Assembly (NCBI GenBank): GCA_963402885.1
Contig: OY727097.1
Coordinates: 15,872,001 to 15,936,000 of the forward strand
Reading direction: 5' to 3'
Length of the DNA: 64,000 nucleotides
Source of the DNA: Antedon bifida
Lineage: Eukaryota; Echinodermata; Crinoidea; Comatulida; Antedonidae
The notes beneath the pieces were generated by a model. It was not told the DNA's origin and made no database searches. It worked only from the letters and a program-made list of their open reading frames with translations. The position numbers and the translations under genes were made by a program. Below are positions 12,471-51,561 of the stretch, in pieces; position 1 is the stretch's first letter, and every line of letters starts with the position of its first letter.

Positions 12471-13317
12471 TTTGTGGATATGATGCATTCTGAAAGTCCT
12501 TTAAAAGTTTTGTTAAAAGAAACATCAAGTACGATTTAATTTTAAACAATGTTAATAATGTTTTGGTATCGGAAAATATCATAGTTTCGATCCATTAAAT
12601 ACACTAATTTTGATAGCTAAAAGATGTATATTCAACTGTAACATTTCAGAAGACCCACAAATTTAAAGTCATTGTTAAAAGAAATATTGAAAAAAATATA
12701 TTGCTTTTGAAAATTATAATTTGCATGCATATAACCTAAAATAGAAAAATATATGAGTATAGTCTGCCTTTTTACTACTCATGATATGTATACATTTTTG
12801 CTTCATTGGTTTTGTATCTTGTTGTTGAAAACGAAAGTGCGAAGGTTTTGGACAGTTTTGTCATCACCAAGTGCGCGCGACAGGTAATACAAAGTGTTAT
12901 GTGACGATTATTACAAAGTGCGACAAGGAGTTTACAGATATGTTATTATATATGCGATGTTTTTTTTCTCAAGACAGTTTATCCGGACTCGACTCTATTT
13001 TTGTCCTTTCTTGAGTTTCGAGATCATAAATTTGATGAGATCTTTCTTGGAGGTATCCAAGTCCAAGTAAATGACTGCGACTTTTAAACTATCTTTGGTT
13101 GATCTGACTTCTCAATGTCAAGATTAACCTTGATGGGGCAGCGTTGTTTGAAATCATGTGCAGTTCTCGACAATACAGTTATCCTCACTACAAAGTAGAC
13201 CTGAGTTGGTTCATTTAGGTATGTTATTACCGATACTTTAAATTGTAAAATTAGCACTTTGTTTTAATCACACTGAATTATATAGCACATATTAGTATTA
13301 ATGTTTGTAACACTTAC

Positions 13318-19294: not shown

Positions 19295-20245
19295 TTATTT
19301 GATTGAGAAAATGATTGTGTTTCTAAGGAAGGGCCACAGGTACGTTTTTTTTTGGCAAAAGACTACTTGGCGTTTTTTAATGAGAATCTTAATTTCTGGG
19401 GTCATCCAAGGTTTGTCATTAGTATGCATTTTAGAAGTTTTTAGTGGAAAGTGAGTGTTAATAGAGCTATTGACTGTACGATAAAATAAATCAGCCTTAG
19501 CTTGGGGTGACTTAGCTTCTAGGACTTCAATCCAAGATTGGACAGTTATCCACCTCCCAAATTCAAACATACATGCTTAGGCATAGGTCTAAAATACTTT
19601 TCCTAATACTACCATTTAATTTAAGGCCGCTCGGGGCCCAAAAAACAGTATTATGGTCACTATTACAAATTGGTGCACCAACAACTGGTTTACAATAAAC
19701 GTTATTAATGTTAGTAACAATAATGTCCAAAATAGCAAGTTCACGTGTAGGTGTCACGAACACTTGTTTCATAGAGTGAGCACGAAATGGGGTTGAAATC
19801 AACTCTGTTAAAATCGCCCAGTATGACGAAACCAATTTCCGGGTATATTGTCTTTAACTGATCAACTGTAAAAAATTATGTGGTCAACTAGCACTTGCTG
19901 ATGTTTAGATTTTGGAGGTATATAAACAGCACAGACAGCTATCGCAGACACCTTGCGTGGGAGTCGGTAAGGACGAACATACAGCCACAAACATTCATTG
20001 TATACAGGGATATTGTCCGTTACGTAGACGGCAACTCCGCCACCAGTTTTTTCCTCTCTTAATTTAGTGAAAACATTGAAGCCATCAATTGATAAGAAAT
20101 CTGTCGAGATTGAATTCGACTGCCATGTTTCTGTTACAACAGCTATATCAACAGGGCATATACAGTTATTCTTAATAACGGCTTCTAATTCGTCAATTTT
20201 GTTGTGTACGGAGCGAGTGTTTGTAAGTAAAACAAGGCCATAATA
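19295..20245 (-). pseudogene. LINE endonuclease domain (decayed)
   Basis: The minus strand reads GLVLLTNTRSVHNKIDELE, VDIAVVTETW, REEKTGGGVAVYV and AVYIPP. After a break come LAILDIIVTN and CNSDHNTVFW, then the linker KPWMTPEIK before the RT. The TETW and SDHN residues are endonuclease catalytic positions. Breaks near 19840-19860 and 19565 make it non-functional. Confidence 0.75.
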
Positions 20246-20254
20246 CATGGCTGC

Positions 20255-21007
20255 AGTCGCGTGCTCAAGTGAGTGTTTACCGACCAACCAACCGACCGAC
20301 CGACCAACCGACCGAAATTGCTGAACATGTTTAAAAATGTTTAAAAACTTCTTTTATTTTCTTTGTAAATAAAGCAAATAAATAAACAACAAAATTAACA
20401 TTTATAATTACAAAATTGATTTAACAAAGAAAAGGGGAAAATTCTTGAAGCAGATGCTTATATTTTTTTAATTTACACGTGCGTAGCCTGTCACTTTTGA
20501 CGTGCTCGTATAACGTAATTTCGAGTTGTAAAGTGAATCAAATATGATGACATTAAAGAAAGGTTGTAAAACAGAAATCGGGCAAAAAGATTGTATATTA
20601 ACGTGCAGTGCGCGTGCAAAAATCTGCGCACTCATTGCAATTTTTCAAACGCCTAAAATTGCCTGAAACGTATTCTAATTTCATCGAAAATAAATTTGAC
20701 AATTTTGAAAATTTTAAGCCCGCGTACGCATGCGTTTTATGCGCTACGCACGTAATTGTATTGCCATATGATGAAAAATAACCTGAAATTTTTGAGTACC
20801 AAATTTTATTTAATTGTGATTCATGCTTGTGAAGATATGATTACAAACGTGATTTCGTTGCGCACCGTGAAAAACATAACCACATCGAAAAATGGACTTA
20901 GCTAGATGAAACTGATATCAAGACAAGGCCATATACAAGTTTGTGTTTACCGACCGACCGACCAACCGACCGACATAATGAGCTTTAGAGTCGCGTTGCA
21001 CGCGACT
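20255..21007 (+). mobile_element. Hairpin-ended element X, forward copy
   Basis: It starts with AGTCGCGTGC (20255-20264) and ends in a hairpin of the same motif and its inverse (AGTCGCGT-TGC-ACGCGACT, 20989-21007). Just inside each end are arrays of ACCG/AACCG units. The middle (20480-20900) has alternating purine/pyrimidine CG-containing words such as GCGCGTGC and matches 31265-31790, 34240-34760 and, inverted, 27520-28110. It interrupts the minus-strand LINE between its basic leader and the endonuclease. No coding sequence. Architecture resembles Helentron-type ends; assignment tentative. Confidence 0.65.
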
Positions 21008-21009
21008 AA

Positions 21010-21300
21010 AAACAGGTAGACCACCAACGGTTTTGGGAGCGAAATGAAAAGTGTTCTTACCCAAATCCGCCAGATCGTGTTTACATATATTAAATTGGCA
21101 TTAGGCCTACGTATCATAGAGTTGGCATCACGAAAATTAGCGATATGTCCATAGCACGAATAAAACAACACGTATTCTACGCTTAGTACCACCACGTTGG
21201 CCTCGTTTTCTTCTTTTAACCCGCTTGCAGGTGGTACGCAAATAGTTCGTCGAGTTCACGTTGTTCCACATGTTCACTACGCTGCTCCCGTGGTATGCAT
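21010..21300 (-). pseudogene. LINE 5' coding remnant (basic leader)
   Basis: Minus-strand text includes STNYLRTTCKRVKRRKRGQR followed by GGTKRR, an arginine/lysine-rich stretch of the kind found just before the endonuclease in CR1-like LINEs, then frame-broken residues up to the X insertion. It probably belongs to the LINE at 13735-20245. Confidence 0.45.
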
Positions 21301-22141
21301 AACATTTAAACAAGATACAAGATACAAGATAACGTTATTGTCAAATAGTTCATCAACAAAAAATTTGAAATTGGTTTTTCTCATGGCAACTTAATATAAA
21401 AATAGAATAAAATCAGTAAAATGTTAAAACACAAAGTAAAATACACAGAACTGTAAAATATGTACAGATAAGGATAAATGCTATCTGGTGTTCCCAGGTG
21501 TTTGAAAATACAATTATTTGTGTTTGTCGTCATTATATTTAAATATACATTGTGGGACAAATGACAGTCGGTACCGTGCTGTCCGTAACCTTCTTCTAAC
21601 CCTCTTAGTCTACACCCAGTACGATTAAACACGAAGGATGTACGGAGTGGATGAGTATCATCGTTCATAATTGCAATTCTTTTCTGTTCCATTCGATTAA
21701 CATACATTTCCATAACACTAGGCAGATTATTATCTCCATTTATGCATTTCTTAGCTCTTTTAACTATGCGTTGATTTGTATTGTATTCATACGTGTTACC
21801 ATAGTAGCAAGTTAAGTTAAACAGTAAAACACTTTGTATAACGGCTTTGTAGAAGAGTACAAGTATTTCTTCATTTACCCTAAAGTTGTTGAGTTTTCTA
21901 ACGAAATACAAACGTTGATTAGCAACAGTTGTTGCAGCCTGGTCTGTCCAGGTAAGTTTCTCATCAATCATGGTTCCTAAATATTTATATTTGTCAATAT
22001 TTCAACAAATGCTCCTTCGATTATAAGTGTTTCAATTTGAGGTTTTTTAATTCTGAAATCAATAATTAATTCTTTAGTTTTCTTAATATTAAGCTCTAAG
22101 TAATTATCGCCACACAGGTTTGTCTGACATGAAACCCGTTA

Positions 22142-23032
22142 TTACAGTATCATCTGCATACTTGATGATGGAGCATTTAGGGTCTTCAAATACATAGTCA
22201 CTCGTATAGATGTAAATAAAATGGGGGATAATACACAGCCTTGTGGGGCGCCTTTGCTGACTTTGCATACTTTAGATTGCGCATCTTCTATTTTAACATA
22301 CTGTGGTCGTTCCCTAAGGTAACTGATAAGCCATAACAACATTTTAGTATTGACATTTAATTTATACAATTTATCGATAAGTAAGTGAGACTGGATACAA
22401 TTGAAAGCACTGGAAATAAAAGTTGATCTGATGAAAGATCTTGGCACATCAAGGTGTTTATATACACTATCAGTATACACCATCACTGCATCATCTACAC
22501 CTCTGTTTTGACTATATGCAAACTGATTAACGTCATTATCAATATCATCATTCGACATAATCATTATAAGCATTATTCTTTCCAAACATTTCATTGGATT
22601 TGGTGTCAAAGTTATGGGACGGTAATCGTTTAAGGAAGTAATTTGTTTAGTTTTAGGCAATGGTGCTATTATTGAAGTCTTCCAAATAGTTAGGATAACT
22701 CCAGTATCAATAGTACGTTTGAAAAAAGTTGTAAATACTGGAGAGAGTTGGTGACCACAAAACTTCAGCACTTTATTGCTAATACCGTCAGGACCCGTAG
22801 CTTTGTTCACCTTAACACCTGGGAATACCTGCCCGACTAAAGTTTCATCAATACTTAAAGTAGTTGATTTTTTATTGGTTTCGTTTTCTAATGACCTTAT
22901 GTTATCGCTAAAATAATGTTTATCAAATCGGCAGTAAAATTCATTTAGGTCATTTGCGAGTTTAAAATTAAAATTGTTAGTATTACTATTATCATTACTT
23001 TGTTTACAGTTAAAACCAGACATTGTTCGCAT
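22142..23032 (-). pseudogene. Reverse transcriptase of the second LINE
   Basis: Motifs in order are VNKATGPDGISNKVLKFCG, PLPKTKQ, LNDYRPITLTPN, the AFNCIQSHLLIDKL segment, GAPQGCVLSPILF and KYADD (22149-22160, just after a frame break). Downstream, LNIKKTKELIIDFR and LTWTDQA continue into the post-RT region. The conserved first catalytic D before AFNC is replaced (SSAFN instead of the usual D-x-SSAFN), a further sign of decay. At least two frame breaks occur. Confidence 0.75.
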
Positions 23033-23214
23033 TGCCTTCCATGCTCCTCGGCTATCACAGTTCTTAAATTTATTTTCAAGAGTTCTATCATCTTCAGCTT
23101 TACCGGATTTGATTAACTTGTTGATTTCTTTTTGTTTCAGTTTAACAAGACTACGTTGTTATCTGCAAAAGCCCGTTGTTTCTCAATTAATAGCAGTCTT
23201 ATGTTTCTCGACAT

Positions 23215-23680
23215 CTATGGTTTGTTATTTGCGTACACTTTCTTGTATTTGATCGGGATCACATTTCCAACACAATATTTAATGTACTCATTTACAGCAG
23301 CAGCATTAGTGTCGATATTATTATCGTCGACCACTGACCACCAGTCCGTACATTCGAAGCAACCGTGTAATGTATCCACTGCATCTTCCGTCCAGGCGCG
23401 GTATTCAATTGTGATTGGCTTGAATTGTTTAAAACGTTGTCTGTATTTCGGCAGCATACACATTGTATTATGATCAGATGCTCCTAGTGGCACTCGCGAT
23501 TTCACATTATATTCACACTTAATATTTCTGTTTCTAATTTCATCAATTTTATTTGGTAGCGATCTAACGTTTGCAAGAATGATGGAGGGGAGTGGGCTCT
23601 TATTACCACTTTTCCTCATTTTTACCCGAGCCCCTCCTTTCGTACCTCGTAGGAAACTTAGGTTTGGCAACAAATAACAT
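23215..23680 (-). pseudogene. Endonuclease remnant with internal deletion
   Basis: The minus strand reads LPSIILANVRSLPNKIDEIR, then immediately ASDHNTMCMLPKYRQRFK. The first is the very start of an APE endonuclease and the second is its last catalytic motif. About 150-200 residues of the core are missing without a frame break. The following text to KYCVGNVIPIK is the normal linker to the RT. Confidence 0.7.
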
Positions 23681-24110
23681 CAGAAAAAACAGTAACGTAA
23701 TCCAGCAAAACACACGAAAGGGACATCAAAAACACATACAAGATAGACATCAATTCAATGACTAAAAAACATCACAAATACAACAGGAAACTAAAGTCCG
23801 GAGAGAAGCTGATAATGTAGCGCTACCGAGACGACGAAACTACTGTCTTATGGCTATGCACAATATTTGTTGGCGTTCCAGATAATTATATTTTATTATT
23901 TAGGTGGTTTAGTATTATTTATGATTTTCAAACAAATTTTAAAAGCTTATTTATGCATGGAAATAGTGTAGATTTCTCATCTTCTAAATTAAATGTCAAC
24001 TGTATACGTGAAGCATAATTATCAATACATTTCAGTTCCAACTTATCTTTACATACATAAACTGCATTATCAAACTTGGTTCTTAATTGATATGACAATC
24101 CTTATTGCAG

Positions 24111-24330
24111 CTTAAAAGAAGCTATACATAATTATATGGGATTGGGTGCAGTAGCATCTGACAAACAGCATGCTTCGATAACTGCTGTAAAATTAACATG
24201 GGATGAATTTGAACCAGAACACTGGGGTAACCCCATATTCATCACGAAAGATGCCCTGGATTATTTATCATCCTGTTTTAAATCAGATGTAATTAGAATT
24301 ATATGGACCTCAACACCATTCCTATTCTAG
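24111..24330 (+). CDS. Terminal coding exon of an unrecognised gene, copy 2
   Basis: A good acceptor (CCTTATTGCAG, ending at 24110) precedes an open frame of 73 codons plus one base, ending at TAG 24328-24330. It includes YMGLGAVASDKQHASITAV, KLTWDEFEPEHWGNP and LDYLSSCFKSDVIR. Codon choice and residue composition look like a real, folded protein. AATAAA-like signals follow within ~180 bases. A diverged copy of the end is at 1-58. I do not recognise the family. Upstream exons were not found; it lies on the strand opposite the ankyrin exons, inside their largest intron. Confidence 0.55.
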
Positions 24331-27300
24331 ATAAATGTCATTCATACTCATTGGGAGTAGGCTGGTTTATTTAGCAGAAACAAGATATCCTTTAACTTGC
24401 ATCAGCTTATCCTTTGACCAAAATTACCAGCATTAACCTTAAAGATGGGAGCCAATAATCAAATTTCTAACATTGTATCAACTTGTCAACTAACTGATAA
24501 AGCGAAAATAAATTCTCAAAGTAAAATTTAAAAATGATAACCTGTTTCAGGTTAAAACCTTTTTTATTGGTTTATTTATCACAAAATATCATTGTTTTTT
24601 GGTCTGGTTGTACAATGTTTATTAAATGGAGGTCTACCTGGTTTTCTCTCGCGATGTATTTTTATGAGCTAGGTCAAATTGGATAGAAAACAAACTTCCT
24701 AGCTACTGTAATTTTTGCTACTTGAAAATTGGACCAGATTCAATTTTCCTATAAAAATGATATAATTTCATGAAAAAGGGCCATTATAAAATTGTAAATA
24801 TTGGTAACAATTGTATTGATTGGGTTGGATTGGATCGCCGCTGGGATTAGTCCTGGAACCAGAATAATAGAGCAGGTTAATTAATTTTTATACCGCATAC
24901 CCTTTGGAGTTATCCGCCGCTTTTTTAGGACTCCTCCAAGGCAATTATTGATTATACGAATTACGTAATTAGTTTAATTAGTTTAGTAGCTTATAGTACC
25001 AATTTAGTAGGGCAAAAAAGACAATTCGAGCATAAGCAACAAAATCCAACTAACTGTTATTTGTAATAGTATAATTTAAATGCAGAAGCTCACAGTAAGT
25101 GTACGTCTTTGTACCATGTTGTTTATGTAAAATTTATGTAACATTTTATGTTTCCTGATAATTGGAATGTAATCAAATTAAATTTGTCAAATCAGAAATC
25201 ACTATAAAGTTTGACTGATGAGTTCAAGTTCAATTTAAAAACATCACCGATGACGCAATAGCTAAACATTAATTATTACCTCCGCCAAGGAGGTTATATT
25301 TTCACCCCTGTATGTGTGTGTTTGTGTGTGTGTCTGTGAACAGCCTGGAGGCCACAGTTTTTATCCGATTCTCACCAAATTTGGCCACAATAATCTATGC
25401 CCCAAAAGCTCGGACGAATTCGAATTTGAGGGGAAAAGGTCATAGGTCAAGGTCACAACTAACAAAAAACTATTTTACTGCCTAGTTTTTATCCGATTCT
25501 CACCAAACTTAGCCACAATGATCATTGACTCATCATATAATTGTGGTTACATTTTGAAGGGTCAGGGTCAAAGATCAAGGTCCACAAAAAAAATCTCAGC
25601 GGGACTTGGACCAGCAATCTCAACTGTGAGAGGCTGGATACATAACCATTACACCAAACTCTCATCCACAACTTTGTAGTGTGCAGTTAGCCTATTTACA
25701 CTTAGAACTAATAAAAAAAATGTAAAAAAATATATAGATACATTTTATGTAGGGGAATTTTACAGTAGGCGGAGGTTTGTACTCTCGGAGTACCCTCTAG
25801 TTATACATATTATTGTCAACATAATCGCGTTGAAGGTATTGCTGTAAATGTACGTAAATATCATAGTACAGCATACGGACAGAAAAAGTTACATGATGAA
25901 ACTAGTCTATCTTCGTATACTAAGCGACTTACATTATCTATACCTGACATAATTATTTGAAGTATGTATATCCCAATATATTTGGTTGGTGTCATATGGG
26001 CGATTTTAAACTCAAACGTTATTGAAAAAAAAACCAGTATTATTTTAAGCTTATACACTACAGTATATTTAAATTATCTACTTATTAATATTTATATATT
26101 TTTTTCTCTTTTTACTTTTGGTTATATAAAACATGTTACCGAGAAACGGAAAACATTCTAGTTGAAATTCACACAGATTGCACTATTTTCTGTATACTTA
26201 AATAGGTTCTCTTTTCGTACATGTGTTGGGAATAGAAAATATTTCAATTCAAACATTTTCCAAAATAGTGGTACACAACAATGACAAAAATGTGTGTTAC
26301 GTTCTTGTCACTAGAACCATTCTTGCGACTGAGTTGAACTTCGAAAATGCCGATCAGATGTAAAAAAAACGTTACGGTACAAAGAGAATAAATTAGCAAT
26401 TGTCACTGCATACTCATCAAACTAGCCGCCATCGAGCAAATACTCAATTCACAGTCATTCAGATTAACAAAAAATGCACTTATTTTCGGGTGACTTTTTT
26501 TCTTATTTGATTTGTGTATTGTTTTATATTATTGTAGATCGTTGTTAGAAATAAGGATGTGATCGAGTCGACTTTAGATTTGCAAGTAACAGAGGTGCAT
26601 TTCTCTTGTCCGTTGTCAGATTGTTATTGAATCTTTGTTGTTGATTTCTCTAATACGTATGTAATTAACCACTTTTCGTCACCCTGCATAGTAGGTATTA
26701 ACAATATGTATTAGAACTCTAGTAACTGTCCTTTTCCGATATCTATTTTTCGACTCAATGTATTTCATTTCTTTTATGAATATGAACAGTTTGTCTTAAA
26801 TGAAAGTTAAATTGAATTTGAATTGCGTGTTTATTGTATTAACAATTGTCTGTAATTTTAGTATTAATTTGTTTAAAATGAATCTTTTGAGGGTTAGTTT
26901 TATAGGGACAATACTACTATTTTGATTTGTTTTGGCCATTAGTGCAATTAAAGCGTAATTAATTCAGCAATCGTCATATTCCATTTAGAAATACTACGTC
27001 CTGTAAATGACTAGAATGTTCTCATGGTTGTATCGCGCCTTTCCACGTATCATTTTATCGCATCCCATCATATTACTATTGAAACCGAATTGAAATTTTT
27101 TAAAAAGCTTTTTATGATGGTCACAAAATGCCAAGATACATTAAAGGAACGCTCATCGACAGATCTATGTATAGTAATGACAAATATACAAACAATGATG
27201 TTGTTGTGATGTCGGGGGTGGGTGTTAGGTGTGGCGCCGTTTATTCGAGGGAGGCGTTTGTTGGTAACATGTTATAATAAATTAAATTCCCCTAGATATG

Positions 27301-27480
27301 AACAAGTACAACACCGTATTTGATATTTTAAAGAAATAATAACAGTAATCAATTGTATGAAAATGCTTGGTAAATAAATAGATATAGCAGTCAATGAATT
27401 ATTCAACACATATAATTGTGTTTGTGTTATAATACAGTATTACAAAATACAATGGCGGGGCGTTTATTAGAGGGTGGAGG
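24270..27480 (+). repeat. Low-copy segmental repeat, copy 2
   Basis: The block is homologous to 1-2560 and in part to 10080-12050. It contains the terminal exon end, the extra insertion at 25276-25800, and the uninterrupted target site of the foldback element near 27107-27118. No further gene is supported. Confidence 0.75.
25276..25800 (+). mobile_element. Non-autonomous Helitron-like repeat (CCTCCGCC...CTAG)
   Basis: Copy 1 lacks this ~525-bp segment between the equivalents of 25275 and 25801 (near 1050). It starts TTACCTCCGCCAAGGAGGT, itself a hairpin, and ends GTACTC-TCG-GAGTAC-CCTCTAG followed by T. A short 3' hairpin a few bases before CTAG|T is the Helitron 3' signature. A GT microsatellite and GGTCA-rich text lie inside. 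The 5' end does not begin with TC, and TTA occurs on both sides, so the class is not certain. Confidence 0.65.
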
Positions 27481-27509
27481 TTGCATTATTATATTGAAAA
27501 TATGTTTTT

Positions 27510-28213
27510 AGTCGCGTGCAACGCGACTCTACAGCTCACTATGTCGGTCGGTTGGTCGGTCGGTAAACACTAACTTATGACCTTATCTTGATATCAGTTT
27601 AATCTAGCTAAGTCAATTTTTCACAGTATATTCCTTATGGCCATGAATCGTTGTGGTTATGTTTTCACGGTGCGCAATAAAAAAATACGCGGTCTACGCA
27701 CGATTTAACGAAATCACGTTTGTAATCATATCTTCACAAGCATGAATCACAATTAAATAAAATTTGGTACTCATAAATTTCAGGGCATAAATCATCATAT
27801 GGCAATACAATTACGTGCGTAGCGCATGTAACGCATGCGTACGCGCGCTTAAAATTTTCAAAATTGTCAAAATTTATTTTCGATGAAAAAAGAGTACGTT
27901 TTAGGCAATTTTAAGCGTTTAAAAAATTGACATGAGTGCGCAGATTTCTGCACGCGCACTGCGCGTTAAATGTTAATACGCACTCTTTTTGCCCGATTTT
28001 TGTTTTCTTGACTTACTTTTCAACTCGAAATTACGTTATACGAGCACGTCAAAAGTGACAGTCTACGCACGTGTAAATTAAAAAAAATATAAATGTTTTT
28101 AAACATTTTCAACATTTTTAAACATGTTTAGCAATTTCGGTCGGTTGGTCGATCGGTTGCTAGGTTGGTCGGTCGGTCGGTCGGTCGGTAAACACTAACT
28201 TGAGCACGCGACT
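27510..28213 (-). mobile_element. Hairpin-ended element X, reverse copy
   Basis: This is the inverse of the element at 20255-21007. The motif hairpin AGTCGCGT-GCA-ACGCGACT comes first (27510-27528), then CGGT/TGGT arrays, the CG-word core, another CGGT array, and the single motif GCACGCGACT at 28204-28213. The full pattern of one hairpin end and one single-motif end is preserved in both copies. There is no coding sequence. Confidence 0.7.
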
Positions 28214-28334
28214 GCAGCCATCTATATGGCCTTTTTTCAAATAAATGCGGTAGGCCTAATTGGTATAACCCTTCCTCCATGGTATAATCAATATATAAAA
28301 GCAGGAATCGAGAAAACAAGGCCAACAGCCATTA

Positions 28335-28479
28335 AGTCGCGTGCTACAATGCATAGTGATACCGGACCGACAGACAGACCGACAGACCGACAGACCGATA
28401 GACAGACCGACAGACAGGCCGACAGACAGACCGACCGACCGACCGACATAGTGAACTATAGAGTCGCGTCCACGTGACT
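28335..28479 (+). mobile_element. Miniature X-like element with (GACCGACA)n core
   Basis: AGTCGCGTGC at 28335 and the hairpin AGTCGCGT-CC-ACGTGACT at 28462-28479 bracket about 115 bases, mostly GACC/GACA units. It has the ends of element X but only the tandem array as cargo. Confidence 0.6.
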
Positions 28480-29780
28480 AAAAAAACAGCAGCATTACCG
28501 TTCAGGGAGGTTAGTCGATAGGGTAGGCTCAATTTTTAAGTAATAGAAAGTCACGTGGTCGTGGAATACTTCATTTCACTTTCATTTGTAAGAATAAACA
28601 TTTATAGGATGATTTATGTAGGTTATAACTATTATAAATATAAATTTAAAGTAAAGGCTCTACGTTTATTCGTTTTATTTCATTTAGCGTGCAAAATCGT
28701 ACATTGGCTATGCTACCTGCATTGTAACAATGAGAATGCGAATTATTCGTGTAAATAAGGTGATCATTACAATAACCTGATGCTACGTTTTTATTCTAAG
28801 CATACTTTAGCTCTGATCGTCCCTACATAATCCCATGTTATACCTGAGGTTTGAACGTAGTATTCTTCATTATTCTTCTAATCCGCCAAATAATTACCAG
28901 CTTATCGTTGGTACAGATTCTTAATTATAATTACGGCTATACCTTTTGACGCCTATCATGATTTTGTTTAATATAGATTTCTTAATTTGTAATAAAAAAG
29001 TATGTTATGCATTTTAATTTTACTTTGCAGTGCTTACATCAGTTTACATGAATGATACAGTACCTACAAGTCCCATTGTATCATCGTATTCGGGATTGTC
29101 AACGTTGGAACACTCGAGTCTATTTCCAGTTTATTGATCAGTAACGTAATTGTTTTCTTTTACAAGCCTTAACTCCACGTATTTAGCTTATTTTAGTTTT
29201 GATTTTTGTCTGGCCAATCCAAGTAAACTTTTGTAATGAAAGTCCTACAATTAAATAAGTGTCAATGTATATAGAGTAATTTATAACTTTTCCATAAGCT
29301 TCCTAATTACATGTATATATACAGTAAAGGTACGCAAAAGCACACACACATTTCATATCTTATTTGTTTTGTGTATTTGCATTGTATTTCAGTAAAAAAA
29401 CGGCTACTACTCTAAGGAAACATTTTTTTGATTAATTTAAATAATATTAATATTTAATTATTTGAATGTCGTACCACCATTTTTAAATTCAAAATGGCAC
29501 CTAAAACTTGCAAGAATTTAAAATATAGTGTAAAATGTTCTGTATTTATTTTTGTTGCAATGAATTTTACTGACCGCATACATTGCATACTTATAATAAG
29601 CATTTAGCCTACCAGATGTATGTTATGTTAAACCTAATTTTAATTATTTTTGTATCAATGAATTTAAAGCATAGAAAATGAGACTTCAATTGTAACTCCT
29701 GCATATTATATTATAATTTTGCATACGTTTGACAAGTTTCCTCGGCGCTGTTGAAAAATCTGTTAATCAGCAGGGCTCAT
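28480..29780. other. Gene-free AT-rich stretch
   Basis: I see no supported gene or complete element. Short open frames (for example 28555-28758) have no features of real proteins. Part of the stretch may be the interior of the Helitron-like element ending at 29808. Confidence 0.5.
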
Positions 29781-29808
29781 ACCCGTCGAAGACGGGTACT
29801 AATGCTAG
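29781..29808 (+). mobile_element. Helitron-like 3' terminus
   Basis: ACCCGTC-GAA-GACGGGT (29781-29797) forms a 7-bp hairpin, followed by ACTAATG and CTAG at 29805-29808, then T. This matches the expected 3' end of a Helitron, with a hairpin near a CTRR end inserted before T. The 5' end was not located, so the length of the element is unknown. Confidence 0.55.
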
Positions 29809-29953
29809 TTTTCTATAAATTAAACTGACAATTACCGAATTAATTTTAATGTAAATGAATCATAATACTAGGTGGTGTACAGATGACTACCTAATCAATT
29901 ACTATTAATGTATTATCTCAAATTGTACGGCATATGGTATATAATTGGATTAA

Positions 29954-30080
29954 TGCGTATGTTGTGATATATAAAAATAGAAAATGTTAAAAAACAAAGT
30001 ATATTTGAATCGGATAATGCGTATGTTGTGATAAAAAAAAGAAAATGTTAAAAACAAAGTATATTAGAATAAGATAATGC
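29954..30080 (+). repeat. Tandem duplication, ~64-bp unit, two copies
   Basis: GCGTATGTTGTGAT and the following ~50 bases, ending AGATAATGC-like, occur twice in succession with few differences. Confidence 0.7.
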
Positions 30081-30523
30081 TAGATATGTAGATGTGTATC
30101 ATATGTGATCGAAATTGTCAGAGGTCAATTTTTGTAGGGTGGGCGTATGTTGTGACGTCTACAGTCTTTTGTAGTACACAATACTTATTTGCATATTTTC
30201 CACCTGTGGGTTGGTTTAAATAGACGAGGTATTTGTAAAGGAAGGAGTTCCAGGCAGGAGGTTGTGTACACAACGAATTAATAACTAGATTTAATTCGTC
30301 ACTATGACGAATTATAGGTTATATGCATTGATTAAAATAAAGATAATTGATTTGTAAAAGATATATTGATTGATTGATTTTCTCAGAATCTTTAATTATT
30401 TATAATATATCCTAGGATCTTACTAACGCAAATACAATAGCCGGTATCGCAATCCGATCAAAGATCCCTCTGCGTATAATGTCATAAACCACATTTGTTA
30501 CATAATAATAAAGACATAAGTTT

Positions 30524-30641
30524 TTTAATCTGTTATAATACTGCACGTTTTAAATTGTTTGCAATATTGTTGTTTTAATCTACCAAGCAAAGTGAATTTC
30601 CATTTTTATGGACAAATAAAATTTCTTGAATCTTGAATCTT
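30524..30641 (+). mobile_element. 5'-truncated LINE tail, 118 bp, 11-bp TSD
   Basis: GACATAAGTTT flanks it at 30513-30523 and 30642-30652. The second array unit has the site uninterrupted near 33613-33625. The insert ends GGACAAATAAAATTTCTTGA plus ATCTTGAATCTT, a classic CR1/L2-like 3' tail with heptamer repeats. It inserted after the array units had duplicated. Confidence 0.8.
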
Positions 30642-30759
30642 GACATAAGTTTCTTTTTATCTAGATTTCATTATAAATCATGTGTATAATCTATACACTA
30701 AGAAATAAAATTGAACAAACAATACAAATAATAAAAAAAAATCTTATTTCGTTTCGTTA

Positions 30760-30835
30760 CCCAAAGTGAGGCTCGATCTCGGTACCTTGAATGCTATAGA
30801 CACGAGCACAGACCACCGAGCCATACGCAACTTAC
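30760..30835 (-). repeat. tRNA-like module in T1 (also near 33724-33798)
   Basis: The minus strand reads ATGGCTCGGTGGTCTGTG (A-box-like), then a region ending GAGATCGAGCCTC (degenerate B box). Stem pairing is incomplete. This looks like a tRNA-derived SINE head or a promoter module captured by the element, not a functional tRNA. Confidence 0.5.
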
Positions 30836-32001
30836 TAAAACATGTAGAATGATTCCTCCGTGTATTTACTATTCAGTAGCCACTTTGGTGCAGATAGATT
30901 ATTACATACCGCAATGAATTATAATTTATTACTATGATGACATCTTTAAAAATTTAAAAAAATGATGCACTGTCAAACTATATACTTTTAACTTTAATAT
31001 ATGAAATTCTTAAGAAAGAAAGTTAATGTTAAGTTTGTTATTTCGGCCTAAGAAAATGTCAAAATGTGTTTGATTGTCGAAATTAATTTTTTTTAATTCA
31101 ATATGCAATTAATGATGACTTAATCAACTTTTGTTCTCTTAATTTGATAATAAATCATACATATGATACATACACTTCAAAAAAATGAAATAAAAAATAG
31201 GTGTTCCCCAGCATTCTGACGATATATATTAATTTTAAAATTTACCATATTTTCACTATTTTGTTAACTTATACGTGCGTAGCCTGTCACTTTTGACGTG
31301 CTTGTATAACGCAATTTCGAGTTGAAAAGTGAATCAAATATGATGATATTATTAAAGAAAGATTGTAAAACAGAAATCGGGCAAAAAGAGTGCGCATTAA
31401 CGTTTAACGCGCAGTGCGCGTGCAAAATTCTGCGCACTCGTGGCAATTTTTTAAACGCTTAAAATTGCCATGAAACGTACTCTAATTTCATCGAAAATAA
31501 ATTTTGACAATTTTAAAACTTTTAAGCGCGCGTACGCATGCGTTATATGCGCTACGCACGTAATTATATTGCCATATGATGAAATATGACCTGAAATTTA
31601 TGAGTACCAAATTTTGTTTAAAAGTGATTCATGCTTGTGAAGATATGATTACAAACGTGATTTCATTAAATCGTGCGTAGACCGCGTAATTTATGATTGC
31701 GCACCGTGAAAACATGACCACATCGATTCCTGGCCATAAGGAATATACTCTGAAAAATTGACTTAGCTAGATGAAACTGATGCCAAGATAATTCACGGAC
31801 AAAATAGTGCTAAGGAAAGAATAAATAAACTAGATCTTAAACTCGTCACTTGAGGACGAGTTTGGTTATCCGCCCGCAACAAAACGTATCTTGCGCATTC
31901 AAGTACTTTTCAGTTGTGACTTTTCCAAAAAGTAGCCTATTCAAAATTAAAACTGCCCTTTCAGTGTAATAACCAAACAGATCCTTTTATTTAATTGTTT
32001 T

Positions 32002-32075
32002 CCCGTGATGGGATTCGAACCCGGTACCTCCGATACCAAAGTCGGTTGCATTACACATCGAGCCATATGAGCACC
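32002..32075 (-). repeat. tRNA-like module in T2 with intact B box
   Basis: The minus strand carries GGTTCGAATCC (32011-32021), a perfect B box, and an A-box-like ATGGCTCGATGTG. It also has an anticodon-arm-like CCGAC-TTTGGTA-TCGG; a TGG triplet there would be proline-type. The acceptor arms do not pair, so it is tRNA-derived, not a gene. Homologous modules are at about 34983-35058, 36663-36738 and 38603-38675; the last two have GGTTCAAATCC. Confidence 0.55.
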
Positions 32076-33389
32076 TGCTGATGAGAATCCGAAGAAAGAG
32101 TCCTCGTTCATTCGGTATGTTGTGAACCCCCTCGATGCAAGTTGATTATTACATATCGAACTTAAATCATAATTTTTACTATGATGAAATCTTCACAAAT
32201 TTTAAACAGTGACATATTATGAAAGTGCATACTTTCAAGTTGTATATATTAACATGTAAAGAAAAAAGATAAACGTTATGTTTATTGTTTTACTCTTTGA
32301 ATATGTTTATGTTTGTTTGATGATAATTATTTCAAAAATTACATTTAATATGCAAATAATGCAGCCATCAAACACTTTTTAACATTCAAGACTATAATAA
32401 ATCAGACCTATGATTAATACACTGCAAGAAAATAAAATAAAAAATGGGGGTAACCTTGCATTTTGATGAACTGTTTCATTTTTAAAATTAGACATATTTT
32501 GCAACAATTTCACAATTTGTTGACGTTTTCGTGCGCAACCTGTCATGTTTAACGTGCTCGTAGAACGCCAATTTAAGTTTTCAAAATGAATAAAACAACG
32601 TAAAATTGTTAACCGAAGTTTGAAAAACACAATTTATGTAAAAGAAAAGCTTATATGCGTTCCCTGCGCCATGCGCGCGTAAAAATGTGCGCACCGGTGG
32701 CAATTTTTTAAACGCTTAAAATGACCTGAAACGTGCTCTAATTTAATCAGAAATTGATTTGAAGCATTTTAAAATTTCAAACGCCGTTTACGCGTGCACT
32801 TTCTAATGTATTAAAATTCGGTAGGGATAAAAAAGTTAACAATTGATGTGAAGCAAACGTGGCTGAAAATTACGTTAAAAAATATTTATCTGTTTCAAAG
32901 TTATGACCAATTTAAGATTTTCAGAAAATCGCGCGTAACTTACGATACGCGCCTCTGACGGCGTCCAAAAGCTTGGCTGCACAATTTCAGTTAAATGTCT
33001 ATATGTTGACCAAGTAACAACATGTTATGTTAACGCGTTGCAGAGAAACAGCGTGAACAAATTTGGAGCATTTTAAAATTTCAAACGCAATTTACGCGCA
33101 AATTTTCTAGTCTCCAAAAATGTTCTAAAGATCGAAAAAGTTAGCCATTGATGTGAAGAAAACGTGGCTGAAAGTTACGTTAAAAAATATTTATCGGTTT
33201 CGAAGTTATGATCAATTTAAGATTTTCAGAAAATCGCGCGTAACTTACGCTACGCGCATCTGAAAGCGTCCAAAAGCTTGGCTGCACATCTTCAGTTAAA
33301 TGTCTACATGTTTACCAAGTTACAACATGTTATGTTAACACGTTGCAGAGAAACGGCGCGAACAAAAGTGGCGGAAAGAAAGAAGAATA

Positions 33390-36300
33390 ACTAGATTTAA
33401 TTCGTCACTATGACGAATTATAGGTTATATGCATTGATTAAAATAAAGATAATTGATTTGTAAAAGATATATTGATTGATTGATTTTCTCAGAATCTTTA
33501 ATTATTTATAATATATGCTAGGATCTTGCTAACGCAAATACAATAGCCGGTATCGCAATCCGATCAAAGATCCCTCTGCGCATAATGTCATAAACCACAT
33601 TTGTTACATAATAATAAAGACATAAGTTTCTTTTTATCTAGATTTCATTATAAATCATGTGTATAATCTATACACTAAGAAATAAAATTGAAATACAAAT
33701 AATAAAAAAAAATCTTATTTCGTTTCGTTACCCAAGGTGAGGCTCGATCTCGGTACCTTGAATGCCATAGACACGAGCACAGACCACCGAGCCATACACA
33801 ACTTACTAAAACATGTATAAAGATTCCTCCGTGTATTTACTATTCAGTAGCCACTTTGGTGCAGATAGATTATTACATACCGCAATGAATTATAATTTTT
33901 TACTATGATGACATCTTTAAAAATTTAAAAAAATGATGCACTGTCAAACTATATACTTTTAACTTTAATATATGAACTTCTTAAGAAAGAAAGTTAATGT
34001 TAAGTTTGTTATTTCGGCCTAAGAAAATGTCAACATTTGTTTGATTGTCGAAATTAATTTTTTTTAATTCAATATGCAATTAATGATGACTTAATCAACT
34101 TTTGTTCTCTTAATTTGATAATAAATCATACATATGATACATACACTTCAAGAAAATGAAATAAAAAATAGGTGTTCCCCAGCATTCTGACGATATATAT
34201 TAATTTTAAAATTTAGCATATTTTCACTATTTTGTTAACTTATACGTGCGTAGCCTGTCACTTTTGACGTGCTCGTATAACGCAATTTCGAGTTGAAAAG
34301 TGAATCAAATATGATGATATTATTAAACAAAGGTTGTGAAACAGAAATCGGGAAAAAATAGTGCGCATTACCGTTTAACGCGCAGTGCGCGTGCAAAATT
34401 CTGCGCACTCGTGGCAATTTTTTAACGCTTAAAATTGCCTGAAACGTACTCTAATTTCATCGAAAATAAATTTTGACAATTTTAAAATTTTTAAGCGCGC
34501 GTACGCATGCGTTATATGCGCTACGCACGTAATTATATTGCCATATGATGAAATATGACCTGAAATTTATGAGTACCAAATTTTGTTTAAAAGTGATTCA
34601 TGCATGTGAAGATATGATTACAAACGTGATTTCATTAAATCGCGCGTAGACCGCGTAATTTATGATTGCGCACCGTGAAAACATGACCACCTCGATTCCT
34701 GGCCATAAGGAATATACTCTGAAAAATTGACTTAGCTAGATGAAACTGATGCCAAGATAATTCACGGACAAAATAGTGCTAAGGAAAGAATAAATAAATA
34801 AATAAATAAACTAGAACTTAAACTCGTCACTTGAGGACGAGTTTGGTTATCCGCCCGCAACAAAACGTATCTTGCGTATTAAAGTACTTCTCAGTTATGA
34901 CTTTTCCAAAAAAGTAGCCTATTCAAAATTAAAACTGCCCTTTAAGTGTAATAACCAAATAAATCCTTTTAATTGATTGTTTTCCCGTGATGGGATTCGA
35001 ACCCGGTACCTGTGATACCAAAGTCGGTTGCACTACACATCGAGCCATATGAGCACCTGGTGAAGAAAATCCGAAGAAAGAATCCTCGTTCATTCGGTAT
35101 GTCGTGAACCCCCTCGATGCAAGTTGATTATTACATATCGAACTTAAATCATAATGTTTACTATGATGAAATCTTCACACATTTTAAACAGTGACATATT
35201 ATGAAAGTGCATACTTTCAAGTTTAATATATTAACATGTAAAGAAAAAAGATAAACGTTATGTTTATTGTTTTACTCTTTGAATATGTTTATGTTTGTTT
35301 GATGATAAATATTTCAAAAATTACATTTAATATGCAAATAATGTAGCCATCAAACACTTTTTAACATTCAAGACTATTATAAATTAGACCTATGATTCAT
35401 ACTCTGCAAGAAAATAAAATAAAAAAATGGGGTAACCTTGCATTCTGGTGAACTGTTTCATTTTTAAAAGTAGACATATTTTGGAACATTTTCACAATTT
35501 GTTGACGTTTTCGTGCGCAACCTGTCATGTTTAACGTGCTCGTAGAACGCCATTTCAAGTTGAAAAGTGAATAAAATAACGTAAAATTGTTAACCGAAGA
35601 TTTAAAAACACAAATCGTGTAAAAGAAATGCTCATACGTGTTCCCTGCGCCGTGCGCGCGTAAAAATGTGCGCAACAGTGGCAATTTTTTAAACGCTTAA
35701 AATGACCTGAATCGTGCTCTAATTTAATCAGAAATTGATTTGAAGCATTTTAAAATTTCAAACGCCATTTACGCGCGCACTTTCTAACGTTACAAATTGC
35801 GGTAGCGTTAAAAAAGTTAACTATTGATGTGAAGCAAACGTGGCTGAAAATGACGTTAAAAAATATTCGTTTGTTTCGAAGTTATAACCAATTTAAGATT
35901 TTCAGAAAATCACGCGTAACTTACGCTACGCGGCTCTGACATCGTCAAAAAGCTTGGCTGGACAACTTCAGTAAAATGTCTAAATGCTGAACAAGTTACA
36001 ACATATTATGTTTACACGTTGAAGAGAAACAGCGTGCACAAAATAAGAAGAGTAAAATATTTCAAACGCAATTTACGCGAAAACTTTCTAGTCTCCAAAA
36101 ATTTGTTAAACATTCCAAAAGTTAGCCATTGATGTGAAGAAAACGTGGCTGAAAATTTCGTTAAAAAATATTTATCGGTTGCGAAGTTATGACCGATTTA
36201 AGATTTTCAGAAAATCGCGCGTGACTTACGCTACGCGGATCTGACAGCGTCCAAAAGCTTGGCTGAACATCTTCAGTTAAATGTCTAAATGTTGACCAAG

Positions 36301-36488
36301 TTACAACATGTTATGTTAACACGTTGAAGAGAAAACGCGTGCACAAAATCTGAGAAAGAAAGAAGAATAATAAAAAAAAAAAGAAACACGTACAATAACA
36401 AAGGTTATCCGCTTGTGGCGGATAACCAATAAATAAATAAAGATCCTGACAGAATCAAGAGGTTATATGCATATCATGCATATAACCT
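33390..36488 (+). mobile_element. Composite array unit 2: complete T1 with nested T2
   Basis: T1 starts with CTAGATTTAATTCG at ~33391, with AGGTTATATGCAT at 33422-33434. It ends in the hairpin AGGTTATATGCAT-ATC-ATGCATATAACCT at 36460-36488. T2 is nested within it, from about 34811 (GGTTATCCGC at 34845-34854) to its own 3' hairpin GGTTATCCGC-TTGTG-GCGGATAACC at 36403-36427. T2 sits about 60 bp before the T1 3' end. Each family thus has its motif once near the 5' end and as a hairpin at the 3' end. Confidence 0.75.
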
Positions 36489-36489
36489 A

Positions 36490-37947
36490 ACTAGATCTGA
36501 ACTCGTCACTTGAGGACGAGTTTGGTTATCCGCCCGCAACAAAACGTATCTTGCGTATTAAAGTACTTCTCAGTTATGACTTTTCCAAAAAAGTAGCCTA
36601 TTCAAAATTAAAACTGCCCTTTCAGTGTAATAACCAAAAAAATCCTTTTAATTAATTGTTTTCCCGTGATGGGATTTGAACCCGGTACCTCTGATACCAA
36701 AGTCGGCTGCACTACACATCGAGTCATATGAGCACCTGCTGAAGAAAATCCGAAGAAAGAGTCCTCGTTCATTCGGTATGTCGTGAACCCCCTCGATGCA
36801 AGTTGATTATTACATATCGAACTTAAATCATAATTTTTACTATGATGAAATCTTCACAAATTTTAAACAGTTACATATTATGAAAGTGCATACTTTCAAG
36901 TTGTATATATTAACATGTAAAGAAAAAAGATAAACGTTATGTTTATTGTTTTGCTCTTTGAATATGTTTATGTTTGTTTGATGATAATTATTTCAAAAAT
37001 TACATTTAATATGCAAATAATGTAGCCATCAAACACTTTTTAACATTCAAGACTATAATAAATCAGCCCTATGATTCATACACTGCAAGAAAATAAAATA
37101 AAAAATGGGGGTAACCTTGCATTCTGATGAACTGTTTCATTTTTAAAATTAGACATATTTTGCAACAATTTCACAATTTGTTGACGTTTTCGTGCGCAAC
37201 CTGTCATGTTTAACGTGCTCGTAGAACGCCAATTTAAGTTTTCAAAATGAATAAAACAACGACAACAAGCATTTTAAAATTTCAAACGCCGTTTACGCGT
37301 GCACTTTCTAATGTATTAAAATTCGGTAGGGATAAAAAAGTTAACAATTGATGTGAAGCAAACGTGGCTGAAAATTACGTTAAAAAATATTTATCTGTTT
37401 CAAAGTTATGACCAATTTAAGATTTTCAGAAAATCGCGCGTAACTTACGATACGCGCCTCTGACGGCGTCCAAAAGCTTGGCTGCACAATTTCAGTTAAA
37501 TGTCTATATGTTGACCAAGTAACAACATGTTATGTTAACGCGTTGCAGAGAAACAGCGTGAACAAATTTGGAGCATTTTAAAATTTCAAACGCAATTTAC
37601 GCGCAAATTTTCTAGTCTCCAAAAATGTTCTAAAGATCGAAAAAGTTAGCCATTGATGTGAAGAAAACGTGGCTGAAAGTTACGTTAAAAAATATTTATC
37701 GGTTTCGAAGTTATGATCAATTTAAGATTTTCAGAAAATCGCGCGTAACTTACGCTACGCGGTTCTGCCAGCGTCCAAAAGCTTGGCTGCACATCTTCAG
37801 TTAAATGTCTAAAGGTTTACCAAGTTACAACATGTTATGTTAACACGTTGCAGAGAAACGGCGCGAACAAAAGTGGCGGAAAGAAAGAAGAATAATAAAA
37901 AAGAAACACTACAATTCCAAGGGCTTATCCGCTTGAGGCGGATAACC
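36490..37947 (+). mobile_element. T2 element copy c
   Basis: It begins CTAGATCTGAACTCGTC, with the 5' hairpin and GGTTATCCGC at 36524-36533. It contains the tRNA-like module and the ~300-bp sub-repeats, and ends in the (degenerate) hairpin GGCTTATCCGC...GCGGATAACC at 37922-37947. Compared with copy d it lacks a ~140-bp block near 37255. It is directly followed by a copy of the T1 3' end. Confidence 0.7.
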
Positions 37948-38000
37948 AATAAAGATCCTGACAGAATCAAGAGGTTATATGCATATCATGCATATAACCT
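37948..38000 (+). mobile_element. Orphan T1 3' end
   Basis: Starting AATAAAGATCCTGACAGAAT, this 53-bp piece repeats 36436-36488, including the AGGTTATATGCAT...ATGCATATAACCT hairpin (37972-38000). With the T1 3' end at 36460-36488 it brackets T2 copy c on both sides. Confidence 0.75.
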
Positions 38001-38435
38001 AATAAAAGTGAAAGGTACCAAGTAAGATGTGTTGTGTATTTATTGTCTACGAAAAACAATATAAGCACTTTATTAGTTATCTCGCTGTTTGCGATTTTTC
38101 ACGTTCGAAAACGGAATCGTTTACCCAAACGCAACTTTATTAACTGTTCGCCGAGTGTCGCATTGATTGCAACACACTGCAAACACCAAGATAATGTAAT
38201 GCATATTTGTGCAATGTTCTTACCGGGAGTGTGTAATTTAATGTTTACATTTTGTTGATAAGTCAGTCTGTGGAGCACATGCCAAGGAAGTTAAGAATTA
38301 TTCTTTTCTTTATTGTTTTTTACTTTTTAATTTATAATTTACATTCAATTATCGTACGAAGGAAGACAAATTAAATCCACCACTTTTAAACAAGATGATT
38401 TGACCAGAGGCAAAATCAACAAAATAATTCTTAAA

Positions 38436-40049
38436 CTAGATCTGAACTCGTCACTTGAGGACGAGTTTGGTTATCCGCCCGCAACAAAACGTATCTTGCG
38501 TATTAAAGTACTTCTCAGTTATGACTTTTCCAAAAAAGTAGCCTATTCAAAATTAAAACTGCCCTTTCAGTGTAATAACCAAAATAATCCTTTTAATTAA
38601 TTGATGGGATTTGAACCCGGTACCTCTGATACCAAAGTCGGTTGCACTACACATCGAGTCATATGAGCACCTGCTGAAGAAAATCCGAAGAAAGAGTCCT
38701 CGTTCATTCGGTATGTCGTGAACCCCCTCGATGCAAGTTAATTATTACATATCGAACTTAAATCATAATTTTTACTATGATGAAATCTTCACACATTTTA
38801 AACAGTGACATATTATGAAAGTGCATACTTTCAAGTTGTATATATTAACATGTAAAGAAAAAAGATAAACGTTATGTTTATTGTTTTGCTCTTTGAATAT
38901 GTTTATGTTTGTTTGATGATAATTATTTCAAAAATTACATTTAATATGCAAATAATGTAGCCATCAAACACTTTTTAACATTCAAGACTATAATAAATCA
39001 GACCTATGATTCATACACTGCAAGAAAATAAAAAAAAAAATGGGGGTAACCTTGCATTCTGATGAACTGTTTCATTTTTTAAAGTAGACATATTTTGCAA
39101 CAATTTCACAATTTGTTGACGTTTTCGTGCGCAACCTGTCATGTTTAACGTGCTCGTAGAACGCCAATTTAAGTTTTCAAAATGAATAAAACAACGTAAA
39201 ATTGTTAACCGAAGTTTGAAAAACACAATTTATGTAAAAGAAAAGCTTATACGCGTTCCCTGCGCCATGCGCGCGTAAAAATGTGCGCACCAGTGGCAAT
39301 TTTTTAAACGCTTAAAATGACCTGAAACGTGCTCTAATTTAATCAGAAATTGATTTGAAGCATTTTAAAATTTCAAACGCCGTTTACGCGTGCACTTTCT
39401 AATGTTATACAATTCGGTAGGGATAAAAAAGTTAACAATTGATGTGAAGCAAACGTAGCTGAAAATTACGTTAAAAAATATTTATCTGTTTCAAAGTTAT
39501 GACCAATTTAAGATTTTCAGAAAATCACGCGTAACTTACGATACGCGCCTCTGACAGCGTCCAAAAGCTTGGCTGCACAATTTCAGTTAAATGTCTATAT
39601 GTTGATCAAGTAACAACATGTTATGTTAACGCGTTGCAGAGAAACAGCGTGAACAAATTTGGAGCATTTTAAAATTTCAAACGCAATTTACGCGAACATT
39701 TTCAAGTCTCCAAAAATGTTCTAAAGATCGAAAAAGTTAGCCATTGATGTGAAGAAAACGTGGCTGAAAGTTACGTTAAAAAATATTTATCGGTTTCGAA
39801 GTTATGATCAATTTAAGATTTTCAGAAAATCGCGCGTAACTTACGCTACGCGGCTCTGCCAGCGTCCAAAAGCTTGGCTGCACATCTTCAGTTAAATGTC
39901 TAAAGGTTTACCAAGTTACAACATGTTATGTTAACACGTTGCAGAGAAACGTCGCGAACAAAAGTGGCGGAAAGAAAGAAGAATAATAAAAAAAAAAAAA
40001 AAAAGAAACACTACAATTCCAAGGGCTTATCCGCTTGAGGCGGATAACC
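38436..40049 (+). mobile_element. T2 element copy d (solo)
   Basis: The start is CTAGATCTGAACTCGTC with GGTTATCCGC at 38469-38478; the end is the hairpin GGCTTATCCGC...GCGGATAACC at 40024-40049. The body is collinear with the other T2 copies. The tRNA-like module here has lost the bases just before the B box. This is the only T2 copy not embedded in T1 sequence, so it best defines the element's length, about 1.6 kb. Confidence 0.75.
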
Positions 40050-40472
40050 AATTATCAATATGTCGGGGAATAAAACCCGACAAATCGTGTGTGGTGTGTG
40101 GTTACATTACAAAATTATAGTGGGAACCGAACCGAATAAATTTTCGTCGCAACAGCGATGATTCAACTACAGTAAAGAGTGGGGGGTGCGAAATTGATAT
40201 GGCATGCTCTTTTCCTTGTTCTTCTAATTCATTTATTTGTTTCAAAATAAAAAAACAATATTTACCATTTGAATCTTACCTTTTATTGTATATCTCAATC
40301 ATAACAATTTTAGATATTACATTTTTGACTGCACCTTTTGAATTGGTGAGTTATGAATGTTTGCATATTATAATATTTTATGGTAAATAAACAATTTAAT
40401 TTGCGGAGATAGAAGTATATACAATTTCCAGATTTATTAATATGTAAAATTAAAATATACTTTATTACTTAC

Positions 40473-51410: not shown

Positions 51411-51561
51411 GATGAACATTAGATCTAGCCTAGCGGAGTATGGTCGAAGCGGCCGCCAGTTTAATATCGTCATTTGTATGGAACGCCATATACGCTTTAA
51501 TCTTTGATTGTCGTTGTCTATGGCGAGTTGAGTTACAGCTAAAGGAGTATGCTCAAACCAA

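Follow-up and report, generated by a model that had tools for sequence, protein, structure and literature searches.

End words and hairpins of three transposon families in the crinoid Antedon bifida and their probable Helitron2/Helentron affiliation

Introduction

What kind of transposon carries a short sequence word once at one end and the same word as a hairpin at the other? Three element families, X, T1, and T2, raise this question in a 64,000-nucleotide stretch of Antedon bifida DNA (contig OY727097.1, positions 15,872,001 to 15,936,000, or C10:15872001-15936000 in our numbering; hereafter, the window). Very probably all three belong, as non-autonomous rolling-circle transposons, to the Helitron2/Helentron lineage and move by the mechanism proposed below, the two parts being judged jointly. 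Their striking end grammar, a pairing of family-specific words that the initial annotation suspected to be undescribed, is the published Helitron2/Helentron end structure. The words correspond to the asymmetric terminal inverted repeats (ATIRs) that, with a 5' hairpin, characterize Helitron2 in Bao & Jurka 2013 (PMC3627910) and to the palindromic subterminal inverted repeats (subTIRs) used to define Helentron and HINE families in Thomas et al. 2014 (PMC4067079).

One genome here combines several word families, near-identical T1 copies, autonomous elements with open frames, and elements whose bodies agree while their ends differ. Such a set makes possible a direct test of whether pairing between the 5' and 3' words sets the end point of replication. 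It also allows us to ask whether target choice travels with the ends, not with the endonuclease, the choice being between A/T (a slash marks a junction or insertion point throughout) and TT.

End words and word hairpins

In the window, the end words AGTCGCGT, AGGTTATATGCAT (the T1 word), and GGTTATCCGC occur eight, seven, and eight times, respectively, compared with a mean of 0.58 (largest, 3), 0, and a mean of 0.06 (largest, 1) in shuffles. Genome-wide (315.6 Mb, 27 contigs), exact word hairpins number 224 for T1, 767 for T2, and 1407 for X; the backwards-read pattern gave 0 for each. These counts are complete and the location lists partial, so statements about individual places hold among the matches listed. 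The initially annotated layout, with a single word at one end and a word hairpin at the other, lies at the places first given and stands far above both controls. The copies in the window are as follows.

20232..21007, +, X copy 1: (A)CAAGG left end, GCCAT..ATGGC small hairpin, word AGTCGCGTGC at 20255-20264, body; left boundary set by dispersed copies
20989-21007, +, X copy 1, far end: word hairpin, then A run
27510..28235, -, X copy 2 (inverted): word hairpin 27510-27528, single word 28204-28213
28315..28479, +, X miniature of the CC-loop subfamily: ends and GACC/GACA microsatellite only; hairpin 28462-28479 with one mismatch
30285..31829, +, T1a left part: A/CTAG, hairpin AATTCGTC..GACGAATT, word 30316-30328, body
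31830..33390, +, T2a left part: interrupted at the tail AATAA/T point, where T1b starts
33391..34810, +, T1b left part: abuts the T2a tail
34811..36429, +, T2b, complete: CTAG leader, word 34845, perfect hairpin 36403-36427, end AA/T
36430..36490, +, T1b right part: hairpin 36460-36488; terminal AA directly abuts the T2c CTAG
36491..37949, +, T2c, internally deleted: CTAG leader, imperfect word hairpin ending 37947, AA/T
37950..38002, +, T1a right part: GATCCTGACAGAATCAAG tail, word hairpin 37972-38000, end AA/T
38436..40051, +, T2d, complete, 1616 bp: end-to-end 100% match (as printed) on C9

Single T1 words stand at 30316 and 33422, with T1 hairpins at 36460-36488 and 37972-38000. Single T2 words stand at 31864, 34845, 36524, and 38469; the T2 hairpin at 36403-36427 is perfect, and those ending at 37947 and 40049 have one stem mismatch each. 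The words are distinct from family to family, as annotated, except that those of T1 and T2 have GGTTAT in common. A lone exact T1 word AGGTTATATGCAT lies at window positions 12725-12737 (minus strand), with no T1 copy described around it. A scan of the window for hairpins with arms of at least 9 returned 17 hairpins and no clear new word family; the scan, which overlooks X hairpins (arm 8) and has an orientation control disturbed by nesting, is weak evidence on this point.

Structure of the element ends

In the orientation of the initial annotation, T1 and T2 read A/CTAG, hairpin, and single word at the left and word-loop-word' and AA at the right, with ends set by dispersed copies and the word hairpin 2 nt from the element end. 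All six T1/T2 left ends in the window carry the CTAG leader with a hairpin AATTCGTC..GACGAATT or AACTCGTC..GACGAGTT. The shared leader had been given as CTAGAT, and one of the six reads CTAGAA. Between T1 and T2, the leader hairpin shows a compensatory T-A to C-G change. What was annotated as the 5' end is the 3' end in the published convention, the elements having been drawn reversed. In published orientation T1, and T2 likewise, reads host A/TT-word-loop-word' ... word'-stem-loop-CTAG/T host.

The boundaries of X had been placed at its words. Word and hairpin are present, but about 24 nt more lie outside the single word, the left end being (A)ACAAGGCCAT..ATGGCTGC, and this outer part includes a small hairpin ((A)ACAAGG, then GCCAT..ATGGC in the TGC-loop subfamily). 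The outer hairpin is weak (3 to 5 bp) and weaker in the CC-loop than in the TGC-loop subfamily. Among 22 matched X left ends, 21 have a hairpin partner (L005 has none), and the left end matches the hairpin type in 20 of these 21, L068 being mixed. The left-end pattern itself demanded a preceding A and left L004, L008, L059, L061, L065, L066, L067, and L071 unmatched; L001 was excluded as lying inside the window; and five of the 21 two-ended copies (window copy 1, L002, L003, L006, and L007) have common flanks and are not independent. In published orientation X reads T run-word hairpin ... word'-stem-loop-CTTGT-T run. X copy 1 also lies within a larger segment that, among the matches listed, recurs many times along C10 at ~11.4 to 16.4 Mb, mostly in the same orientation; it is the flanks of this copy that are common to L002, L003, L006, and L007.

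All three families thus have a palindromic subTIR with a matching subTIR before a 3' stem-loop, as in Helentron/HINE elements, where the palindromic subTIR lies 2 to 4 nt from the 5' end (PMC4067079). Described in Helitron2 terms, the 5' ATIR forms a 5' hairpin and the 3' ATIR lies upstream of, and just inside, a second hairpin at the 3' end (PMC3627910).

Autonomous partners

A relative encoding Rep and helicase with the same ends, which the initial annotation had proposed to look for, was found for T2, and what it encodes is not a DDE transposase. The genome search for Helitron_like_N (PF14214) gave 39 places, 38 of them above the curated cut-off, and 16 of the 39 have open frames of at least 2,500 amino acids. 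In the one copy whose frame was scanned for domains (on C8, T2 line), a single open frame holds OTU, DUF6570, Helitron_like_N, PIF1, and Exo_endo_phos, each above cut-off. Exo_endo_phos scored 47.3 bits against a cut-off of 24.5, which sets this partner apart from proto-Helentrons, defined as having no endonuclease. The sequence at the end of the endonuclease-bearing open reading frame (ORF) recurs, 82% identical, in a second autonomous set. Motifs recognized by eye in the translation are ones we take to be the Y2 and HUH motifs of Rep.

Two autonomous copies, C10 and C11, begin exactly at CTAGATTTGAACTCGTC..GACGAGTTAGGTTATCCGC, a CTAG-hairpin-word end of T2 type, with ..GGATAACCAA or ..GGATAACTAA before the junction. 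Upstream of CTAG the two are 54 to 80% alike over 50 to 1000 bases; downstream the identity is 100% for the first 50 and the first 100 bases, 99.5% for 200, 93.4% for 500 aligned ungapped, and 99.7% for 1000 with 50 gap columns. With a partner that encodes Rep, Pif1 helicase, endonuclease, and OTU and begins as T2 does in two copies, the Helentron/Helitron2 resemblance proposed at the outset is borne out.

On the other side, all six stretches read past the ORF end (L075 and L093 to L097; L096 follows a broken Rep) hold T2-like sequence that runs in the same direction, and three of them (L075, L094, and L097) extend through the T2 word hairpin and AA into a further CTAG (..GGTTATCCGCCAAGTGCGGATAACCAA/CTAG..). 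The C10 element, the one of the two copies above that is followed by the T2 word hairpin, makes together with L097 a candidate unit of ~15.5 kb, its interior read in part. In the second set, the post-ORF DNA on C8 (L104/L105) matches 1523 bp of window T2b at 97.9% identity, and on C7 a 96% T2 match (T2 positions 13-1616) starts ~550 bp past the ORF-end match. At these loci the ORF starts toward the CTAG end and finishes toward the hairpin end, the reverse of the usual direction; inverted ORFs are known in the Helitron2/Helentron group (PMC3627910, PMC4067079, PMC5148889).

At 30 of the 39 Rep loci, no exact X, T1, or T2 word lies within ~1.5 kb on either side of the Rep domain. A variant hairpin, AGTTATCCGCT, occurs near the Rep fragment of L038. 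On C8, an X-like body lies ~1.7 kb away from a degenerate Rep fragment; it was considered and rejected, since it runs in the wrong direction for that element's tail. At C8:11169103-11169507, spaced portions of the autonomous 5' region are matched by separate short segments that lie next to one another, as they would in a spliced, retrocopied transcript.

Insertion sites

The insertion dinucleotide of T1 and T2, which the initial annotation had left to be found, is A/T: both families insert between A and T. The base before CTAG is A at all 23 distinct CTAG left ends (counting only ends with a matching hairpin), and the right end is AA in 16 of 16 T1 and 18 of 18 T2 cases. It is followed by T (14), A (1), or a neighbor's CTAG (1) in T1 and by T (10), A (4), or a neighbor's CTAG (4) in T2; the T2 tally took in right ends only where the upstream tail fitted the search pattern and the stem was exact, which leaves out window T2c, T2d, and some stacked hairpins. 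Unlike Helentrons, T1 and T2 do not insert within TT with T runs of variable length; their TT 5' terminus, CTAG 3' terminus, and A/T insertion are those of proto-Helentrons.

A CTAG end with a hairpin a few bases inside and insertion at A/T is also what a canonical Helitron1 non-autonomous element would have, CTAG then being an instance of the CTRR 3' end, preceded by its hairpin, and the hairpin at the opposite end incidental. We regard this as very unlikely for T1 and T2. The opposite end has TT and the family-word hairpin where Helitron1 would have TC and no 5' hairpin; that hairpin is present hundreds of times with its paired single word; and the partner frame holds an endonuclease and OTU, which are described for Helentrons.

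For X, A directly follows the hairpin in all 21 two-ended copies, and at least three A follow in 20 of the 21. A diverged paralogous site without X near window positions 12060-12098 suggests that copy 2 may have gone into a T-rich spot. As far as tested, these flanks suggest that X may sit in runs of A or T as ordinary Helentrons do.

In the flanks of 12 T1/T2 copies, there was no target duplication of fixed place and fixed length, and no clean empty site was found outside A/T-rich repeats; these elements likely insert without a duplication. Short, AT-rich, high-copy elements with inverted-repeat words at both ends could also be cut-and-paste miniature inverted-repeat transposable elements (MITEs) of a DDE transposon with imperfect terminal inverted repeats, and HINE-like elements were formerly annotated as MITEs (PMC4067079). 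In 2 of the 12 copies (T1 copies L044 and L052), moreover, an 8-nt AT-rich word near the ends is common to both flanks, which may be chance or a variable target duplication. Against an origin as MITEs, the ends are asymmetric, the duplication of fixed length is missing from all 12 copies, the linked proteins are Rep-helicases, and a T2-type left end sits on an autonomous Rep-helicase element; we consider such an origin extremely improbable.

Arrays of T1 and T2

The tail of T2 contains a single A/T point at which other elements are nested. Around base 1551, intact T2d reads AATAA/TAAAA. T1 starts at the AATAA/T point of a T2 tail twice, in window T2a and in L105, after the autonomous ORF on C8; in L105 the T2a/T1b junction of the window is found again with one substitution on the T2 side. 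T2 inside the (ATAA)n tail of T1 is also compatible with A/T. Among five T2 array candidates scored, that on C1 has two units ending at base 1551, each followed by base 1 of the next with zero bases between, and extra tail modules (~1553-1616) stand at the far end of the arrays on C1, C9, and C7. The T1/T2 arrays would therefore arise because T2 units and T1 insert at this one point of the T2 tail. At C1:27360817-27366052 and C9:9650565-9659831, T2 forms long arrays whose far ends carry several additional hairpin-tail modules.

Helitron arrays have been ascribed to a bypassed termination signal (PMC4067079), and the arrays here might likewise be rolling-circle read-through concatemers. Head-to-tail AA/CTAG joins occur at 4 of 18 T2 and 1 of 16 T1 right ends, and the units of the C9 array end at 1551, 1560, and 1209, not at one base. 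As an account of the arrays in place of serial insertion, read-through is doubtful: it would join 1616 to 1, not 1551 to 1 as in the C1 array; the extra ~1553-1616 tails on C1, C9, and C7 stand at the far end, as serial nesting predicts; and T1 entered the same T2 point twice. It is possible that read-through and serial nesting both operate.

Proposed mechanism

In the mechanism that we propose, the nick at the 5' word hairpin is most likely made by a Y2 HUH Rep-helicase that comes from relatives encoding an endonuclease and OTU; this enzyme would then peel off one strand and stop at the 3' end. The same proteins would move T1 and X besides T2. Two partners are available to the 5' word, the other arm of its hairpin and the identical single word' close to the 3' end, and a change from the first pairing to the second would mark the end point. 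This follows Bao & Jurka, who proposed that the 5' hairpin is opened when the 5' and 3' ATIRs pair and that this pairing determines where replication ends (PMC3627910). The strand would be circularized and then inserted, at A/T for T1 and T2 and in T runs for X. If pairing marks the end point, a change in one copy of a word must be matched in the other two.

The 5'-3' word match is longer than the hairpin stem in T1 (14 to 15 versus 12 to 13 in 7 of 7 copies) and X (9 to 11 versus 7 to 8 in 20 of 21 copies); in T2 it is 10 to 13 in five copies, against a 10-bp stem. These lengths are the longest exact matches, in which one or two letters may be chance, and copies within a family are not independent, so that the comparison covers effectively a handful of families. 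A match longer than the stem fits the pairing proposal and would equally fit a Rep-binding site longer than the stem.

Besides the shared 8-nt flank words and the unequal unit ends of the C9 array, several observations weigh against the rolling-circle assignment. Word pairing is broken in 1 of the 21 X copies; an A run is common to both flanks in 1 of the 12 T1/T2 copies; and the empty site of X copy 2 is 81% alike over 365 columns, with poor alignment at the junction. Neither T2 word nor hairpin was found in L093, L095, and L096 (three of the six stretches), because these end inside a unit or the word has changed, and the right sides of the autonomous elements differ, so that their left terminus is known more sharply than their right one. 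A T2 leader was absent from the stretch read upstream of the C8 copy, and none was seen before the second-set ORF. An autonomous element with T1 or X words was not found, and the machinery of X is deduced from its architecture.

Relations among the families

The bodies of T1 and T2 are 70 to 71% alike over ~660 bp, and those of X and T1 are 87 to 90% alike over 411 to 533 bp, with words and outer ends that lack obvious likeness. These similarities indicate that T1, T2, and X are related by descent and that their ends change faster than their bodies or get exchanged; for X and T1, the likeness could also come from a T1 fragment taken up into X. The initial annotation had conjectured a sequence-specific recognizer for the ends of each family. 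Since families with different words share bodies, their constant end grammar is at least partly common descent with changed ends. T1 is, by the identity of its copies, a young family: among the best 40 candidates scored, 27 full-span matches at 98 to 100% identity lie on nine contigs, window copies included.

A tentative view of the lineage, which we hold to be somewhat less likely than its opposite, is the following. Rep-helicase-endonuclease elements would have kept CTAG and A/T insertion, and sisters with nearly the same body (X versus T1) would have unrelated words and T-run sites. In that case end modules (the word trio, outer hairpin, and target choice) would be exchanged as blocks, and acquisition of the endonuclease would not have accompanied the switch to TT insertion.

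Comparison with known systems

Helitron2 resembles the families described here further in its compensatory changes and in a RepHel that is sometimes in the opposite orientation (PMC3627910). Its Chlamydomonas examples insert after TTTT, whereas T1 and T2 have a CTAG end and insert at A/T, and Helitron2 is summarized as lacking an endonuclease (PMC4067079), which the partners of T1 and T2 have. Helentron, HINE, and DINE-1 elements share the endonuclease-bearing Rep-helicase, with OTU reported, as well as microsatellite cores and an excess of non-autonomous over autonomous copies (PMC4067079). X fits this group as far as tested, perhaps including its boundaries in A or T runs; T1 and T2 differ from it in their A/T insertion and CTAG end, not within TT. 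In proto-Helentron-Pi of Phytophthora infestans, the 5' TT, 3' CTAG, and A/T insertion are as in T1 and T2, but that element has no endonuclease, in contrast to the partner in this genome (PMC4067079). FoHeli elements of Fusarium oxysporum have ATIRs, hairpins at both ends (FoHeli1/2), joined-end junctions, and some inverted ORFs; they differ in their termini (TCAG..ATTTT or TGCCT..CTCCTGT), and no endonuclease was found in fungal elements (PMC5148889).

In the open-licence literature as far as consulted (RepBase and subscription papers being outside this scope), no element turned up that combines an endonuclease with CTAG ends and A/T insertion. New here are the families themselves and a mildly unusual variant, CTAG-ended, A/T-inserting elements with endonuclease-encoding partners.

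Other features of the window

tRNA-like stretches lie at window positions 32000-32075 (T2 body) and 30735-30830 (T1 body) and at ~215-300 of L104 (autonomous tail), and a B-box-like GGTTCGAATCC was seen by eye on the minus strand in T2. ARAGORN found no tRNA in the window, and Rfam gave no match at gathering scores. Elsewhere, a reverse-transcriptase-like coding stretch recognized by eye on the minus strand (21500-23660) is probably a relic of a non-LTR (non-long terminal repeat) retrotransposon, and tandem arrays occupy 56449-57383 (~63-bp units) and 51549-52134 (~75-bp units).

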